A stretch of 64,000 nt of DNA from Fimbriimonadaceae bacterium. GTDB taxonomy: Bacteria > Armatimonadota > Fimbriimonadia > Fimbriimonadales > Fimbriimonadaceae. The notes under the pieces are model-generated. The model was not told where the DNA came from, ran no database searches, and worked only from the letters and a program-made list of their open reading frames with translations. Location: NCBI GenBank assembly GCA_019187105.1, contig JABAQM010000001.1, positions 3,130,734 to 3,194,733 of the forward strand. Reading direction: 5' to 3'. Position numbers and translations under genes: made by a program. Numbering within the stretch: the first letter of the stretch is position 1; each line of letters starts with the position of its first letter. Of this stretch, positions 9,587 to 17,904 are shown piece by piece.

Positions 9587-11305
9587 CTAAGCATAAATCA
9601 CCCTCAAAACCTCATCAACCGTGGTAACTCCCATTAGGATCTTGCTAACGGCATCGACCTGAAGCGTTTTCATCCCGTTTTGAACCGCAAGCTGCCTTAA
9701 GATATGGCTGGGCGACTTGTGGAGAATCTGGTCGCGGATATCATCGTTAAGCTCCATCAGCTCGTGAACGCCGGTTCGTCCTTTGTAACCTGTTCCCTTG
9801 CAGTGGTCGCAGCCTGCGCCCTTGAACAGCGTGATCTCGCCTCCGGTTTCCATGCCGACATCTTCAGGCACAGGGAAGCCATACCGGATTAGGCTTTCGC
9901 GGCTAGCCATGTACGACTCCTTGCAGTTCAGACAGATCTGCCGGACGAGGCGCTGGGCGAGAACACCGACGAGCGACGAGGAGATCAAGAAGGGCTCCAC
10001 CTCCATGTCGATCAATCGAGTCGGTGCCGACGGAGCATCGTTCGTGTGCAGCGTGCTGAGGACGAAGTGGCCGGTTAACGCGGCCTCCATGGCTATGGTC
10101 GCGGTCTCCTTGTCGCGCATCTCGCCGACCATGATGATGTCGGGATCCTGGCGCAGCATCGCCCGCAGTCCGGCTGCAAAGGTCATGCCTGCGCGATTGT
10201 TGACGTTGCACTGGTTGATGCCGGAAAGCTCGTATTCGACAGGGTCCTCGATCGTGATGATGTTGGACTCGCCGGTGTTGACCTTGTTCAGCATCGAATA
10301 CAGGGTCGTGGACTTGCCCGAGCCAGTCGGGCCGGTAACGAGCACAATTCCGTAGCTGCGGCTCGACAGGTCCTCGAGTGTTTTCAAGTTGTGGGGAAGA
10401 AAGCCGAGCTTCGATAGCCCCACGTTGATCCCGCCCTTGTCGAGCACCCGGAGGACAATTTTCTCCCCGTAAACAACGGGAAGAGTTGAAACGCGAAAGT
10501 CGTACTCTTTGCCGCCAATGACAGCGCTAATCCGGTTATCTTGGGGGACTCGCTTCTCGGCGATATCCATGTTGGACATGATCTTGAAACGGGAGGTCAG
10601 GGGTGCGACCACCTTCTTCGGCAACGTCATCGCCTGGATCATCACGCCATCAATGCGGAAGCGAACGGTGATGCCATCCTTTCTCGGTTCGATGTGGATA
10701 TCGCTGGCTTTGTCGGCCACGGCCTGGTTAACGATGAGCGTGGCCAGTCGGATGATGGGCGCATCCTCACCCATCTCCCTAAGCTCATCTTCGCTAAGGT
10801 CGTCAGGCTCGCTGGACGAAAGCTCCATCGTTCCGTCGAAGTCCTTCATCACGCCTGCGAGGGCATCGTTGACGTTGATGTCGACCTTGAAGTGGTTGCT
10901 TAGGGCGGCGGCCAGGTCTTCTTCGACCGCAATCGCCGGTTCAATTTCAAGACCCGTCGTGAGTCTCAGTTCGTCGATGACGAAAATGTCGAGAGGGTTC
11001 GCCATCGCGACGATCAGCCGGCCGTCGACGATTCGGAGCGGTAACGACTTGAAGCGCTTGGCTACCTGGGGGGAGAGCAGCTGAAGTGCATCGGGGCTCG
11101 GAGATGTTTGGGAAAGATCTTCGAACGGAATTCCCCACGCCTTGCCTGTGCAACGTACGCGGTCCCGCTCAGAGACCAATCCCATGCTGACGAGAACCCG
11201 GGCAATGGGTTCGGTACCGCCGAGCTCGCGTTGCTTGTCTTCGGCAAGCCGAAGCTGGTCGTTCGTGATCAGCCCTTCCTCCACAAACAACTCCCCTGTC
11301 AGCAT
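9587..11305 (-). CDS. pilB: Type IV pilus assembly / type II secretion ATPase PilB (GspE family)
   Basis: Extension ATPase that powers pilin assembly at the inner membrane. The 572-residue protein has an N-terminal MshEN/T2SSE-N domain (GELFVEEGLITNDQL, then LLSPQVAKRFKSLPL), the ATPase core with Walker A GPTGSGKSTTLYSM, Asp box IITIEDPVEYEL, Walker B DPDIIMVGEMRD and His box STLHTNDAPSAPTRLIDM, and the tetra-Cys zinc site CLNCKE..CDHCKG typical of GspE/PilB. The start at ATG 11305 (AGGG just upstream) matches the family N-terminus; the longer open frame to 11446 overlaps a small gene and is not conserved in type. Followed by HDOD and pilT. Confidence 0.94.
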   Translation of the reverse strand: MLTGELFVEEGLITNDQLRLAEDKQRELGGTEPIARVLVSMGLVSERDRVRCTGKAWGIPFEDLSQTSPSPDALQLLSPQVAKRFKSLPLRIVDGRLIVAMANPLDIFVIDELRLTTGLEIEPAIAVEEDLAAALSNHFKVDINVNDALAGVMKDFDGTMELSSSEPDDLSEDELREMGEDAPIIRLATLIVNQAVADKASDIHIEPRKDGITVRFRIDGVMIQAMTLPKKVVAPLTSRFKIMSNMDIAEKRVPQDNRISAVIGGKEYDFRVSTLPVVYGEKIVLRVLDKGGINVGLSKLGFLPHNLKTLEDLSSRSYGIVLVTGPTGSGKSTTLYSMLNKVNTGESNIITIEDPVEYELSGINQCNVNNRAGMTFAAGLRAMLRQDPDIIMVGEMRDKETATIAMEAALTGHFVLSTLHTNDAPSAPTRLIDMEVEPFLISSSLVGVLAQRLVRQICLNCKESYMASRESLIRYGFPVPEDVGMETGGEITLFKGAGCDHCKGTGYKGRTGVHELMELNDDIRDQILHKSPSHILRQLAVQNGMKTLQVDAVSKILMGVTTVDEVLRVIYA

Positions 11306-12901: not shown

Positions 12902-12917
12902 GTCTATAATAGTAGAC
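12902..12917 (+). promoter_or_regulatory. Perfect inverted repeat over the imuB -10 box; candidate LexA-type operator
   Basis: GTCTATAATAGTAGAC consists of arms GTCTA and TAGAC with a 6-base spacer. A consensus -10 hexamer TATAAT (12905-12910) lies inside it, and the imuB ATG follows 11 bases after the hexamer with no ribosome-binding site between. A repressor bound here would block the promoter. Because imuB/dnaE2 cassettes are LexA-controlled elsewhere, LexA is the natural candidate; the motif differs from the LexA boxes of well-studied phyla. Confidence 0.55.
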
Positions 12918-12921
12918 AGAT

Positions 12922-14232
12922 ATGCGCTATTATCTTCACATCTCGCTTCACCGGTTCTTCGCCTTGGCGCTGGCGAGCCGCCAGCCGAGCCTGAAGGGAA
13001 GTCCCTTCGTGATCGATGCGGATGGAACGGTACTGGATCTCAGCTTGGAAGCGGAAATCCAAGGCGTTCGCAAGGGAATGGGATTAAGCGAAGCGCGGTC
13101 GATCTTGCCGGAAGTTCGGGTGATTTCCTATGTTGCCGCAGAATACGAAGAGGCAAGGGCAACCTGGCTCGATGCCTGCCTGTTGTTCTCCAATGTGATC
13201 GAGCCGGGCGAGCCGGACGAGGCGTGGATCGACTTGACCGGTCATCCCGATCCCGCGTGGATCGCCGAGGAGCTGGTTTGCGAAGTTCGCCGCGCTTCCG
13301 GCTGTCTGGTGCGGGCGGCGATCGCTCCCCGTAAGTGGGTCGCCCGGCTGGCCTCGTCGATATCGCAGCCGGTGATTGGGCTCGCCGAGCCGGAAATCAA
13401 CGAGATAGCGGAAGTTTTTGGCGAATCTGGGTGGACCAAAGCGACCTTGAAGGAGCGAAAAGGAGGCGGCTTTGGCCGAGCCATGCGCCGATTCGAGGCC
13501 AGCCTTCCGGTGATCTCCGATGTGTTTGCCTTTTTGGATCCGATTCCCACCCGCCACCTCGAACCGGTGGCCTTGACCCATCGTGCTCGGCTGGAATTCC
13601 TGGGCTTCCGAACGATCGGCCAGGTTGCCCGAGCCTCGGTGGCGGTGCTGCGCCGTCATTTCGGGGTCGAAGGGACGGCGATTCGGGAAGCAGCGATGGG
13701 CGGAGCTTCCGATGCTGTCCGAGCGATTTACCCCCCTGATTCGGTGAGTGTCAAGCGGACCTTCGAGGGCGGCTGCCGCGATGCGGTCGTCCTCGATTCC
13801 GCCCTGCGGGAGACGGCGGCGCGGCTGGCGTGCGAGCTCAGCGAGCGGGATCGGGTCGGGGCCGATCTGATTGGGGTGATCGAGTCGGAAACCGGGCGAA
13901 TCCGACTCCAACGTCGGATGGCCAAGCCGATGCAGGCAGCGGCGCCCCTTTTCCGGGCGATGCAGCAGATGATGCTGGGTCAGGAAGAGAACTGGTCGGA
14001 AGGGATCTGGGGATGGCGTTGGACAATGCCCGGGCTCCAGCCGACTAAGCGGCGGCAGGTTGCCTTTAGGACGATGCCGAACGTGCCCGACAAGCAGGCT
14101 CGGGCCGAACAGGCAATGGGCGGATTGAATGCGGCCTATGGGCCGAACCGGGTGCTGCGGGCGGCGGATGTGCCGGAAACCCGGCGTCAGCGGGTGCTCC
14201 GCATTTGGGGCGAATCAAATGGCTGGTTCTGA
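12922..14232 (+). CDS. imuB: ImuB, Y-family polymerase-like mutasome protein
   Basis: Y-family-fold protein that in known mutasomes links the sliding clamp to the error-prone polymerase DnaE2. The 436-residue protein starts MRYYLHISLHRFFALALA: where active DinB enzymes have the first catalytic Asp, this one has ISLHRFF, so that residue is lost. IEPGEPDEAWIDLTG, the second acidic motif, is kept. A thumb/HhH region (LEFLGFRTIGQVARASVAVLRRHFG) and a basic C-terminal part follow. Loss of the first Asp agrees with ImuB acting as a scaffold rather than a polymerase. It overlaps the following dnaE2 gene by 14 bases. ImuA is not visible. A palindrome covers its promoter. Confidence 0.88.
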   Translation: MRYYLHISLHRFFALALASRQPSLKGSPFVIDADGTVLDLSLEAEIQGVRKGMGLSEARSILPEVRVISYVAAEYEEARATWLDACLLFSNVIEPGEPDEAWIDLTGHPDPAWIAEELVCEVRRASGCLVRAAIAPRKWVARLASSISQPVIGLAEPEINEIAEVFGESGWTKATLKERKGGGFGRAMRRFEASLPVISDVFAFLDPIPTRHLEPVALTHRARLEFLGFRTIGQVARASVAVLRRHFGVEGTAIREAAMGGASDAVRAIYPPDSVSVKRTFEGGCRDAVVLDSALRETAARLACELSERDRVGADLIGVIESETGRIRLQRRMAKPMQAAAPLFRAMQQMMLGQEENWSEGIWGWRWTMPGLQPTKRRQVAFRTMPNVPDKQARAEQAMGGLNAAYGPNRVLRAADVPETRRQRVLRIWGESNGWF

Positions 14233-17221
14233 ACGGCTAATTGCCCGATGGCGCGAAATCGGCGCCTGGTGGGCGGACGAACCGACGCTGGAGGTCGCAC
14301 GCTATCTCGATAAGCGAGGCATTCGGCGGGAGGTTCAACGGGTCTTGTCCCCGGATTCTTCACCGTCCTCCGAAGAACCGGGGGGCCCGTTGAGAGGGCC
14401 ACGACGGCACGATCGGCGCTGGGATAACGTCCGCGAGCCGGATCATCGTGACGAATGGTCGTTGCGCCCACGAAAGGTACGCGATGAAAAGGTGTCCTAT
14501 GCCTGCGGCAAGGTGGTGAAGGGAAGAGGCGAAGAGTATGCCGCCTTTTTGCGCGGTCTCGGCCACTCGGGCAATCCCAAGGCCTACGCGCCGCTCCACG
14601 TCATGAGCGGCTATGCCTTCGGCCGTAGCGTCATGTTTGCCGAGCAGATCGCCCGAACCGCCGCTCACTACGGTCTGCCCGCCGCCGCGATCACCGATCC
14701 GTTTTCCCTTGTTGGCGCGGTCGAGTTCGCCCATGAGGCGTCCAAGCTCGGCGTCAAGCCTCTGATCGGCGCTTCTCTGGAAATAGAGGATGGCGGTGAG
14801 ATCGTGCTGATCGCCCGCAGCAAGCTGGGCTACCGTAGCCTGTCGATGCTGATAACGGCCTGCCTCCTGGAGGAGCCTCGCCAGTTCCCCTTGGCTACTT
14901 GGACGCGGTTGGAACGCCATTCCCAAGATCTCGTCTGCTTGACCGGAGGCGACTTGGGGCCGCTCAACCGCCGGCTGGTATCGCGCGATTTCGAGCGCGC
15001 AGAGGAAATTGGTCGGCGCTTGGTTGCCCTGTATGGCGGCGACAACGTCTTCGTCGAGATCGAGCGCAGCTATCTTCCTTGGGAGATTGCGGTGAACGGA
15101 CGCCTTTTGGAATTGGCCGAACACCTTGGACTCAAAGCGGTCGCCGGCGGTGTGGTAACCCATGCCCGGCCGGAGGAGTTTCCCGCCCAAGACATCCTCA
15201 CCTGCGCAGAAACGCTCTGTACGGTTGACGAAGTGATCGGGCGCAAACCACAGCGCCATACCTCTCAGCCCCAGGTCAAGCCGACCCCTCGTCGAGCCCT
15301 CAACGCCGAGCGATTCTTTCGAAGCCCCGATGAGATGGTGGCGATTTTTGGTGATCGCCCCGATCTGCTTGCGGCCACCTTGGCAGTGGCAGATCGCTGT
15401 GACGACAATGTGCTGCCCGACCGGACGCGGCTGCCTCAGATCTTCGATAACCCCAACCAGGTTCTGAGGGATGCCACTTGGGCAGGTGCTGCTCATCGCT
15501 ATCGCATGATGCCGCCCGAGCTCAAAAAACGGATTCACGAGGAGTTGGACCGGATTAGCCGGCTGAACTTTGCCGACCACTTTCTGGTGATGTGGGATGC
15601 CTGCCGGTGGGCCGGCGAACAGAACATCCTCTTCAGCGGACGAGGATCGGTGGTGGATTCCGTGGTTTCCTACTGCCTGGGATTCTCACGGATCGACGCC
15701 TTTCGCCACAATCTGCTGTTTGACCGCTTCTTGCCCGAAGATGGCAGCAAACGTCCCGATATCGACGTCGATTTCGAGGCGAAGCGGCGCGACGACGTCC
15801 GCAACTATCTTTCAGGCAAGTACGGTGAGCGTCATGTCGCCACCGTCTGTGCGGTCGGCGCCCTTTGCACGCGGGGGATCGTTCGGGATGTTGGAAAGGC
15901 TCTTGGATTGCCGACTGCGGTAATCGGCTTTCTCGCCAAGCGCGTTCATGGCGGGGTCGCACCGGAATATCTTGAGAAGGCGCTGATGACCCGGCCCGAG
16001 TTAAGGGGAAGCCACATCCCTCGCGAACGGTTTCGGTGGGTGTTCCAGCTTGCCAAGGAGCTTGCCGACGTGCCTCGGAACATGCGTGCCCATTCTTCCG
16101 GAGTCGTGATCTCGTCGGTTCCGATCGAGGAGACCGTGCCGGTGATGTGGTCGGCTTCGGATGGGTTGGGCGACAACCATCTGCGGATCATGCAGTGGGA
16201 CAAGCGCAGCACCAAGCACTTCTTCGATAAGTTCGACATCCTCTGCTTGCGTGGCCAGGATGTCCTTTCCGGCACGCAGAACCGGGTAAGGGAAACCATC
16301 CCCGATTTCAACGTGGAGCATGCTCCCTTGGAGGATGAGGATGCCTACCGGGCGATGCGCTCGGGAAATCTGATCGGCATTCCTCAATCGGCCTCACCCG
16401 CGATGCGACAAGCTCATATTCGGCTTAAAACCCAGGATCTGGTTGATGCCAGTCTTGTCCAAGCCGGTATCCGCCCTGGCGTGGGTGGCGCGGTGAAAAT
16501 CAACGAACTGATCGCCAGGCGGCGCGGCAAGCCCTATACCTTCGAACATCCCGATCTCGAGTCCATCCTCGGCCATACCTATGGGATCATCGTCTTCCAG
16601 GAGCAGGTGGATCAGCTCCTGCAGACCTTCTGCGGCTACTCCTCCGGCGAAGCCGAAGATATTCGGGACAAGATCCACAAGCGGCGGCGGGAGGATTACG
16701 GCCAGGTTATCCGCGACGAGGTCTTGGAGCGCATTCGATCACGGGGCTATTCCGCTTCAGTGGCTGAGAACGTTTTTGAGCTTGTGGCCGGATTCAAAGG
16801 TTACGGCTTTGCCCAAGGGCATGCCCTTGCCTTTGCCGAGATTTCGATCCGGTCGATCTTTTGCCAGCAGAACTTTCCCGCGGAGTACTTTGCGGCTCTG
16901 CTGCAGGCCCAGCCCGCCGGCTATTACGGTCCAACCACGATTGCGAACGAGGCGCGCAGTCGAGGGGTGGCGATGCTTCCCGTCGATGTGAACCTCAGCA
17001 GTGAGGATTTCCAGGTGGAGGATGTGCAATCGGAAATGGATCCGAAGATCGTGCTGCCACGGGCAGGGATCCGGACGAGTCTGACTCAAGTGGCGGGGCT
17101 GTCCGAAGCGACTCGCAAACGCATCGTGGCCTGGCAGATCGCTGCAGGCCCGGCAAAGGAACATCTGGCTAGCCTTGCCGAATTACAGCAAGCCCCGGTT
17201 CAGACGGAGGTGAGACGATGA
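14219..17221 (+). CDS. dnaE2: Error-prone DNA polymerase III alpha subunit DnaE2, N-terminal and catalytic part (divided gene)
   Basis: C-family translesion polymerase partner of ImuB; this 1000-residue product holds the catalytic region. Residues 1-~100 contain a short WREIGAWWADEPTLEVARYL segment resembling the DUF6504-type wing usually found after ImuB. A PHP domain begins near residue 126 (LHVMSGYAF). Its metal motifs are degraded: His-x-His is HVM and the usual TDHG is TDPF, so the domain is probably inactive. The polymerase part has GRGSVVDSVVSYCLGF, the catalytic aspartates in PDIDVDFE (residues 513-519), VFQEQVDQLLQTFCGYSSGEAE, and GYGFAQGHALAFAEIS. It stops at the helix-hairpin-helix boundary; the rest is encoded by the next gene, joined by an ATGA overlap. 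Confidence 0.9.
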   Translation: MAGSERLIARWREIGAWWADEPTLEVARYLDKRGIRREVQRVLSPDSSPSSEEPGGPLRGPRRHDRRWDNVREPDHRDEWSLRPRKVRDEKVSYACGKVVKGRGEEYAAFLRGLGHSGNPKAYAPLHVMSGYAFGRSVMFAEQIARTAAHYGLPAAAITDPFSLVGAVEFAHEASKLGVKPLIGASLEIEDGGEIVLIARSKLGYRSLSMLITACLLEEPRQFPLATWTRLERHSQDLVCLTGGDLGPLNRRLVSRDFERAEEIGRRLVALYGGDNVFVEIERSYLPWEIAVNGRLLELAEHLGLKAVAGGVVTHARPEEFPAQDILTCAETLCTVDEVIGRKPQRHTSQPQVKPTPRRALNAERFFRSPDEMVAIFGDRPDLLAATLAVADRCDDNVLPDRTRLPQIFDNPNQVLRDATWAGAAHRYRMMPPELKKRIHEELDRISRLNFADHFLVMWDACRWAGEQNILFSGRGSVVDSVVSYCLGFSRIDAFRHNLLFDRFLPEDGSKRPDIDVDFEAKRRDDVRNYLSGKYGERHVATVCAVGALCTRGIVRDVGKALGLPTAVIGFLAKRVHGGVAPEYLEKALMTRPELRGSHIPRERFRWVFQLAKELADVPRNMRAHSSGVVISSVPIEETVPVMWSASDGLGDNHLRIMQWDKRSTKHFFDKFDILCLRGQDVLSGTQNRVRETIPDFNVEHAPLEDEDAYRAMRSGNLIGIPQSASPAMRQAHIRLKTQDLVDASLVQAGIRPGVGGAVKINELIARRRGKPYTFEHPDLESILGHTYGIIVFQEQVDQLLQTFCGYSSGEAEDIRDKIHKRRREDYGQVIRDEVLERIRSRGYSASVAENVFELVAGFKGYGFAQGHALAFAEISIRSIFCQQNFPAEYFAALLQAQPAGYYGPTTIANEARSRGVAMLPVDVNLSSEDFQVEDVQSEMDPKIVLPRAGIRTSLTQVAGLSEATRKRIVAWQIAAGPAKEHLASLAELQQAPVQTEVRR

Positions 17222-17904
17222 CGCTGCCATTCGCTTCCTTTTTTGATTTCGTCGCGAAGGTTCGTCCCGACCGGGATGAGCTGGAGTCGCTGATTTTATG
17301 CGGGGCCTTGGACTCGCTTCATTCCAACCGACGAGAGATGCTGTGGGCGATTCCGAAGGCCATGCAATGGTCGGCGACGATCGGCGGGGAAGCAGGTTCC
17401 TTCGCCATGGACCTGCCGGAACCGACCTTCGACCCGTGTCCTGAAGATTTGACACCGGAAGAGCGGGCGATTCAGGAACGGCGCATTCTCGGCATGGACA
17501 TCCATCGCCACCTGATGGCCTTCGAACGGGAGCGGGTGCAGGAAAAAGGCGGCCTTACCACCCAGGAGGTGAAGAAACTCCCCGACAAAGCGAAGGCGAT
17601 CGTAGTCGGCAATCCGATCCGGCTCCGCTTTCCACCCACGCCGAGCGGCAAGCGAGTGGTGTTTTTCGACCTGGAAGACGAAACTGGTCTGCTGAACGTG
17701 ACCTGCTTCGACGCGGTTTATCGCCGATACGGGCATGCCATCGTCTGTTCGCCCTACATTACGATCGTGGGTCGGTGTCAGGACCGTGACGGCTGCCCCG
17801 CCTTTCTCGCCCAGCAGGTTTATCCTTATCGGTCGCTCATCGAACAGCGAATCGGCGAACTGCAGGAGTTGCCGCTCAAGACGGCCGACTTCCTGGTCGG
17901 ATGA
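17218..17904 (+). CDS. DnaE2 C-terminal part: helix-hairpin-helix and OB-fold domains as a separate gene
   Basis: A 228-residue protein that corresponds to the C-terminal end of a normal single-chain DnaE2. ASFFDFVAKVRPDRDELESL and RREMLWAIP are the fingers/HhH segment. RRILGMDIHRHLM matches the 'TGLSLRAHP' position, and KRVVFFDLEDETGLLNV with ITIVGRCQDRDGCPA form the OB fold that binds single-stranded DNA. It starts at ATG 17218, overlapping the stop of the catalytic gene (ATGA), with an ideal GGAGGTGA ribosome-binding site 5 bases before the ATG. That site argues for a real second gene rather than a frameshift. The two chains presumably assemble into one polymerase. Confidence 0.85.
   Translation: MTLPFASFFDFVAKVRPDRDELESLILCGALDSLHSNRREMLWAIPKAMQWSATIGGEAGSFAMDLPEPTFDPCPEDLTPEERAIQERRILGMDIHRHLMAFERERVQEKGGLTTQEVKKLPDKAKAIVVGNPIRLRFPPTPSGKRVVFFDLEDETGLLNVTCFDAVYRRYGHAIVCSPYITIVGRCQDRDGCPAFLAQQVYPYRSLIEQRIGELQELPLKTADFLVG

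Follow-up and report, generated by a model that had tools for sequence, protein, structure and literature searches.

A DnaE2-type translesion polymerase encoded by two overlapping genes and divided between its helix-hairpin-helix hairpins in a Fimbriimonadaceae bacterium

The window analyzed here is a 64,000-nucleotide stretch from the 3.3 Mb genome (two contigs, ~99.6% complete) of a member of the Fimbriimonadaceae (Armatimonadota). Three genes lie head to tail on its plus strand, with imuB overlapping dnaE2-N and dnaE2-N overlapping dnaE2-C; no ImuA gene adjoins dnaE2 in this operon. The features, in window positions, are:

12902..12917, plus strand: GTCTATAATAGTAGAC, a promoter -10-like box with a GTAGAC half-site, before imuB and conserved in the family
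12922..14232, plus strand: imuB, for an inactive Y-family-like polymerase of 436 aa (Pfam IMS, E 8e-21)
14219..17221, plus strand: dnaE2-N, the catalytic chain of 1000 aa (chain 1; Pfam, NCBIfam, alpha subunits in the PDB, and alignment A2)
17096..17137, plus strand: the first helix-hairpin-helix (HhH) hairpin segment, GLSEATRKRIVAWQ, the final part of chain 1 that can be aligned with relatives (alignment)
17138..17218, plus strand: the chain 1 tail of 27 aa, forming the N-side of the expanded loop between the hairpins (alignment)
17206..17213, plus strand: GGAGGTGA, the 8-nt Shine-Dalgarno sequence of dnaE2-C
17218..17221, plus strand: ATGA, the dnaE2-N stop overlapping the dnaE2-C start
17218..17904, plus strand: dnaE2-C, of 228 aa (chain 2), with the second (HhH)2 hairpin (residues ~4-41) and an OB-fold region (~143-194)

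The N-terminus of ImuB, as translated from the window, reads HISLHRFF at the position where DinB-type enzymes have HVDMDCFF; judged by eye, the first catalytic aspartate is gone. Chain 1 contains, in order, an N-terminal extension, PHP, palm/thumb, fingers, and the first (HhH)2 hairpin, and carries the sequence RPDIDVDFEA, which matches the active-site aspartates (PDxDxD) of the DnaE catalytic core. It matches PF07733 (E 4e-62), a finger profile (E 8e-28), and the error-prone polymerase model PRK05672 (5.6e-149, which for the split chain falls under that model's curated cut-off). The replicative DnaE1 of this genome is a separate, intact alpha subunit (C1:542567-545002), distinct from dnaE2-N and 29% identical to the N chain. 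Chain 2 ends ~35 residues past the OB match, like intact relatives, and is without the C-terminal tau-binding domain. On sequence criteria, the protein is a variant rather than a typical member of DnaE2, because the cut between its hairpins departs from the one-chain, uninterrupted (HhH)2 of that class.

The initial annotation held that the catalytic gene ends at the HhH boundary and that a separate gene supplies the HhH and OB-fold part. The Pfam HHH_6 profile is instead divided, with chain 1 covering positions 1-53 and chain 2 covering 50-90; since this match runs over both chains, the HhH domain itself is divided. Alignment with relatives places the cut between the two (HhH)2 hairpins, within a loop of variable length, such that chain 2 does supply the second hairpin and the OB region but the first hairpin belongs to chain 1. 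Aligned to alpha subunits in the PDB, chain 2 begins at approximately residue 914 of T. aquaticus Pol III alpha. Its OB match in Pfam is weak and sub-threshold. In a predicted model of chain 2, the hairpin helices are supported (pLDDT 78-89); the model is poor beyond the first 55 residues (mean pLDDT 52.7), including the OB part. By one fixed measure, the inter-hairpin loop is usually 24-30 residues long in relatives and reaches 37-78 residues in G091, G071, G064, G086, G021, G061, G020, G018, and G094.

The start of dnaE2-C is as previously described, i.e., the two ORFs are present, the second ATG overlaps the first stop, and a Shine-Dalgarno sequence lies just upstream. In 864 kb of the window genome, counting both strands, Shine-Dalgarno sequences of at least 8 nt precede 13 of 24,463 ATGs (0.05%), and none of the 28 out-of-frame ATGs inside dnaE2-N is preceded by one of at least 6 nt. 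Coupled translation of dnaE2-N and dnaE2-C in the window is supported by this arrangement. Since the two reading frames differ by one step, a one-base error could formally account for the split: a base would be missing from the sequenced or assembled loop, and the gene would truly encode one chain with an expanded loop. The dnaE2-C frame is open upstream to ~17173, 15 codons ahead of its ATG, the joined chain would have a loop of 56 residues, inside the range of the relatives, and broken dnaE genes exist in some relatives' genomes, such as G032 (both dnaE1 and dnaE2). Against this, dnaE2 has the only frame break in ~197 kb of the window genome compared with ORFs of three relatives (the other candidate was an artefact, an ORF antisense to a prepilin-like region), and a Shine-Dalgarno sequence of such strength is rare before ATGs. 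These observations, together with a second genome that has the same cut in unlinked genes, make an error unlikely.

We searched related genomes for the same split. The C part is present in 81 of 113 genomes of the class and, with contig-edge fragments set aside, stands alone in only two of them, i.e., the window genome and the genome G070 (contig JAIXUN010000003.1; MAG D1_MAG_00021). A scan of the phylum, in which 153 of 291 genomes matched, found no further clean split. The genus of the window is represented by one genome, so that its split is known from that genome alone. Nearly all family relatives have a single-chain DnaE2; continuous genes had been proposed as grounds for refuting the split, but they show only that it is derived and not that it is false. 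Several other candidates were set aside: the short C frame of G022 opens at the second base of its contig, that of G087 starts at query residue 25 and was taken to be cut off by a contig edge, the parts in G151 lie on different contigs, and G277 and G282 show multiple breaks or missing stretches. G032 and G102 are broken elsewhere, at query residues ~580 and ~244, respectively. In G032 (CP021424.1; L044, L059), frame changes interrupt dnaE2 and the replicative dnaE1 alike, a pattern that suggests indel errors in the assembly.

In G070, the catalytic gene (L205 4767-1411, minus strand, 1118 aa) encodes a chain that runs to GLSDETRTRILGW and then has a 28-aa tail rich in P, S, and G before the stop, with another gene following. 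The C gene (L065 5992-6675, 227 aa) lies downstream of a ComEC-like gene, and its product starts MNRFSGFFDFVAKVRP, compared with MTLPFASFFDFVAKVRP in the window. The cut site is the same in both genomes; by the fixed measure, the loop halves comprise 38 + 18 residues in the window and 41 + 17 in G070. The two G070 genes are ~22 kb apart on contig C4, with imuB on contig C1, and neither this genome nor the window genome contains an intact dnaE2 copy. Because its genes are ~22 kb apart, the G070 split is not a frameshift. Moreover, because this relative has the same cut with its genes apart, the two-piece enzyme looks real rather than a sequencing error, and G070 is the strongest support for a two-gene DnaE2.

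The unlinked genes of G070 also bear on a programmed -1 frameshift, by which an occasional full-length chain would be made beside chain 1 alone. In the window, the 15 open codons before the dnaE2-C ATG mean that a shift within them would yield one fused product. However, no canonical slippery heptamer was seen by eye in the overlap, the Shine-Dalgarno sequence is placed for initiation at 17218, and frameshifting between genes that are apart is impossible; we regard this mechanism as highly improbable. Rejoining after translation can be set aside more firmly still. Cyanobacterial DnaE is a known split C-family polymerase (PMC3919608) whose chains are rejoined by protein trans-splicing, but Pfam detects no intein or Hint domain in either window chain, and the extra residues at the cut (27 aa in chain 1, ~3 in chain 2) are far too short for intein halves. 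A split intein is refuted by the sequence.

Of the C-part columns invariant in 41 intact relatives, 40/40 are kept in both the window and G070, and the reading frames of dnaE2-N and dnaE2-C are otherwise free of stops and breaks. Branch lengths on a fixed tree give C/N ratios of 1.13 (window) and 0.65 (G070), compared with 0.59-2.06 for intact forms, so that neither small protein shows accelerated evolution. These findings argue against recent pseudogenisation, in which the stop would be real, the polymerase dying, and chain 2 a remnant. Such a loss would be tolerable in that DnaE2 is non-essential wherever tested (PMC3919608), and the gene is absent from several family genomes; decay might also not yet be visible after a very recent event. 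Nevertheless, the branch lengths are not raised, the Shine-Dalgarno sequence is strong, and the promoter ahead of imuB is conserved, leaving pseudogenisation very unlikely.

Trees require two changes to explain the window and G070 splits. A topology uniting them as sisters was rejected (p-AU 0.013) on a 21-row tree with few strong forks, a test of moderate strength given how many forks are weak, and shared ancestry of the splits was discarded on this basis. Because the tree rejects sisterhood of the split forms, DnaE2 was probably broken on two occasions at the same site. G070 groups with the long-loop forms G020 and G021, whereas the nearest rows to the window, G014, G100, and G002, are short-looped. 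Such a pattern would be expected if the loop first grew and the gene then split in the G070 clade, and if loop growth and fission both took place on the window's own branch.

In the window and in most of 19 relatives, the sequence TATAATAGTAGAC occurs ~10 nt ahead of the imuB start codon. Scored against the relatives' matrix, 12902..12917 reaches 25.2 bits, compared with 12.3 for the next best site in the 64-kb window. The imuB start codon lies ~7-10 nt past the TATAAT box in the window (12902-12925) and in most relatives; owing to this spacing, the imuB mRNA is probably leaderless. Some relatives carry a palindrome, GTAGA-N6-TCTAC. In G070, copies of it abut the ATG codons of dnaE2-C and imuB, and a further copy extends across the start of a dinB-like ORF; its count there (four in 3.8 Mb) is uninformative alone because it is not above that of a reversed control pattern. 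The palindrome also occurs at dinB-like genes of G012 and G014, and GTAGAC half-sites lie ahead of lexA in G014 and G070; no operator-like site was found before lexA in the window genome. Copies before dinB-like or imuB genes are at L128 14928-14943, L234 1501-1516, L238 1501-1516, and L226 near 2698. These positions suggest that GTAGA-N6-TCTAC is a LexA operator of Armatimonadota; a literature search found no paper on a LexA binding motif in this phylum. A putative LexA-type operator would imply joint induction by DNA damage, as judged from the position of the motif. The chains of G070 are probably controlled separately and by the SOS response. The earlier suggestion of separate control is plausible for G070, where the C gene has its own operator-like palindrome, but not for the overlapping genes of the window. 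The proposed exchange of the DNA-binding end finds no support, as each genome has a single C part and a single catalytic part.

Other features of the locus were observed. DnaE2 proteins of the family have an N-terminal extension of ~120 aa with a conserved WREAGEWWxGEPxRE (window 14219-14580; alignment A2 columns 1-130), for which searches of Pfam and plasmids gave no Pfam match and nothing useful. ImuB ends early, at RVLRIWGESNGWF. The extension could represent an ImuB-C domain transferred from ImuB to DnaE2; in the mycobacterial model, the ImuB-C domain binds the PHP domain, which the extension adjoins. In the PHP domain (window 14591-14620, LHVMSGYAFG), the second His of the usual metal-binding LHxHSxYS is missing, so this domain is probably inactive as a nuclease. 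Elsewhere, at L072 ~10450-10600 (G000:C1:170.4-170.6 kb), the strand read contains GAACCTGATCCGG near a prepilin-like gene, which suggests a putative TPP-type riboswitch.

We conclude, with a probability of about 0.78, that an ImuC-type, C-family DnaE2 translesion polymerase has been split by gene fission into two chains, which are predicted to re-associate. The variable loop between the hairpins would have grown and a frame break arisen inside it, which would have been kept because the strong Shine-Dalgarno sequence and the ATGA overlap let ribosomes re-initiate. In the window, both chains would be produced from a single imuB-dnaE2N-dnaE2C transcript and, the genes overlapping, be made close together. 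Half an (HhH)2 could be unstable, and the chains may re-associate by completing this domain. ImuB may help to hold the halves together, perhaps steadying them as a bridge, since its thumb touches the HhH region in the modelled mycobacterial mutasome (PMC12926913). In G070, the same fission would have led to unlinked genes, with an operator-like palindrome on the C gene. Of the initial annotation's deliberate two-subunit translesion polymerase, the genuine two-gene structure of DnaE2 and its coupled translation are supported, while re-association and error-prone synthesis by the split enzyme are predicted. A more tentative, and doubtful, proposal is that the HhH-OB subunit licenses DnaE2, with chain 1 idle or distributive until the separately made C subunit joins through ImuB and completes the DNA-binding domain; the separate promoters of G070 would then be a second switch on mutagenesis. 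A natural break inside (HhH)2, made twice, offers a way to test which roles (HhH)2 and OB have in DnaE2 and whether the polymerase is held together by ImuB; two-chain complementation can be assayed directly.

Apart from the intein-split cyanobacterial DnaE, we found no description in the open-licence literature of a C-family DNA polymerase that works as two unjoined chains. Fragmented dnaE genes were noted in a 2013 survey of homologues of Pol III alpha, which also treats the cyanobacterial intein split; they were regarded as frameshifts, in part perhaps due to sequencing errors, and were put back together (PMC3919608). The present dnaE is likewise in pieces, but its cut recurs in another genome, where the genes are unlinked and the small one carries an operator-like site. 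The case cautions surveys against joining such fragments as a matter of course. As in cyanobacterial DnaE-n/DnaE-c, a C-family alpha subunit arises from two genes; the cyanobacterial enzyme, however, is replicative and intein-spliced, whereas the window has no intein sequence and is cut between HhH hairpins. The portion of a 2026 survey considered here describes split ImuB and contains no split DnaE2; the iPolY plus stand-alone ImuB-C of its DnaE2X systems similarly spread a mutasome component over two chains, but there ImuB is divided and here DnaE2 (PMC12926913). The closest likeness is to ImuA-ImuB-DnaE2 mutasomes, e.g., of Mycobacterium tuberculosis, which share the C-family core, PHP, HhH, and OB, the absence of a C-terminal tau-binding domain, and an operon with an inactive Y-family ImuB; in contrast to these, the window DnaE2 has no adjoining ImuA gene and comprises two chains, divided inside (HhH)2.
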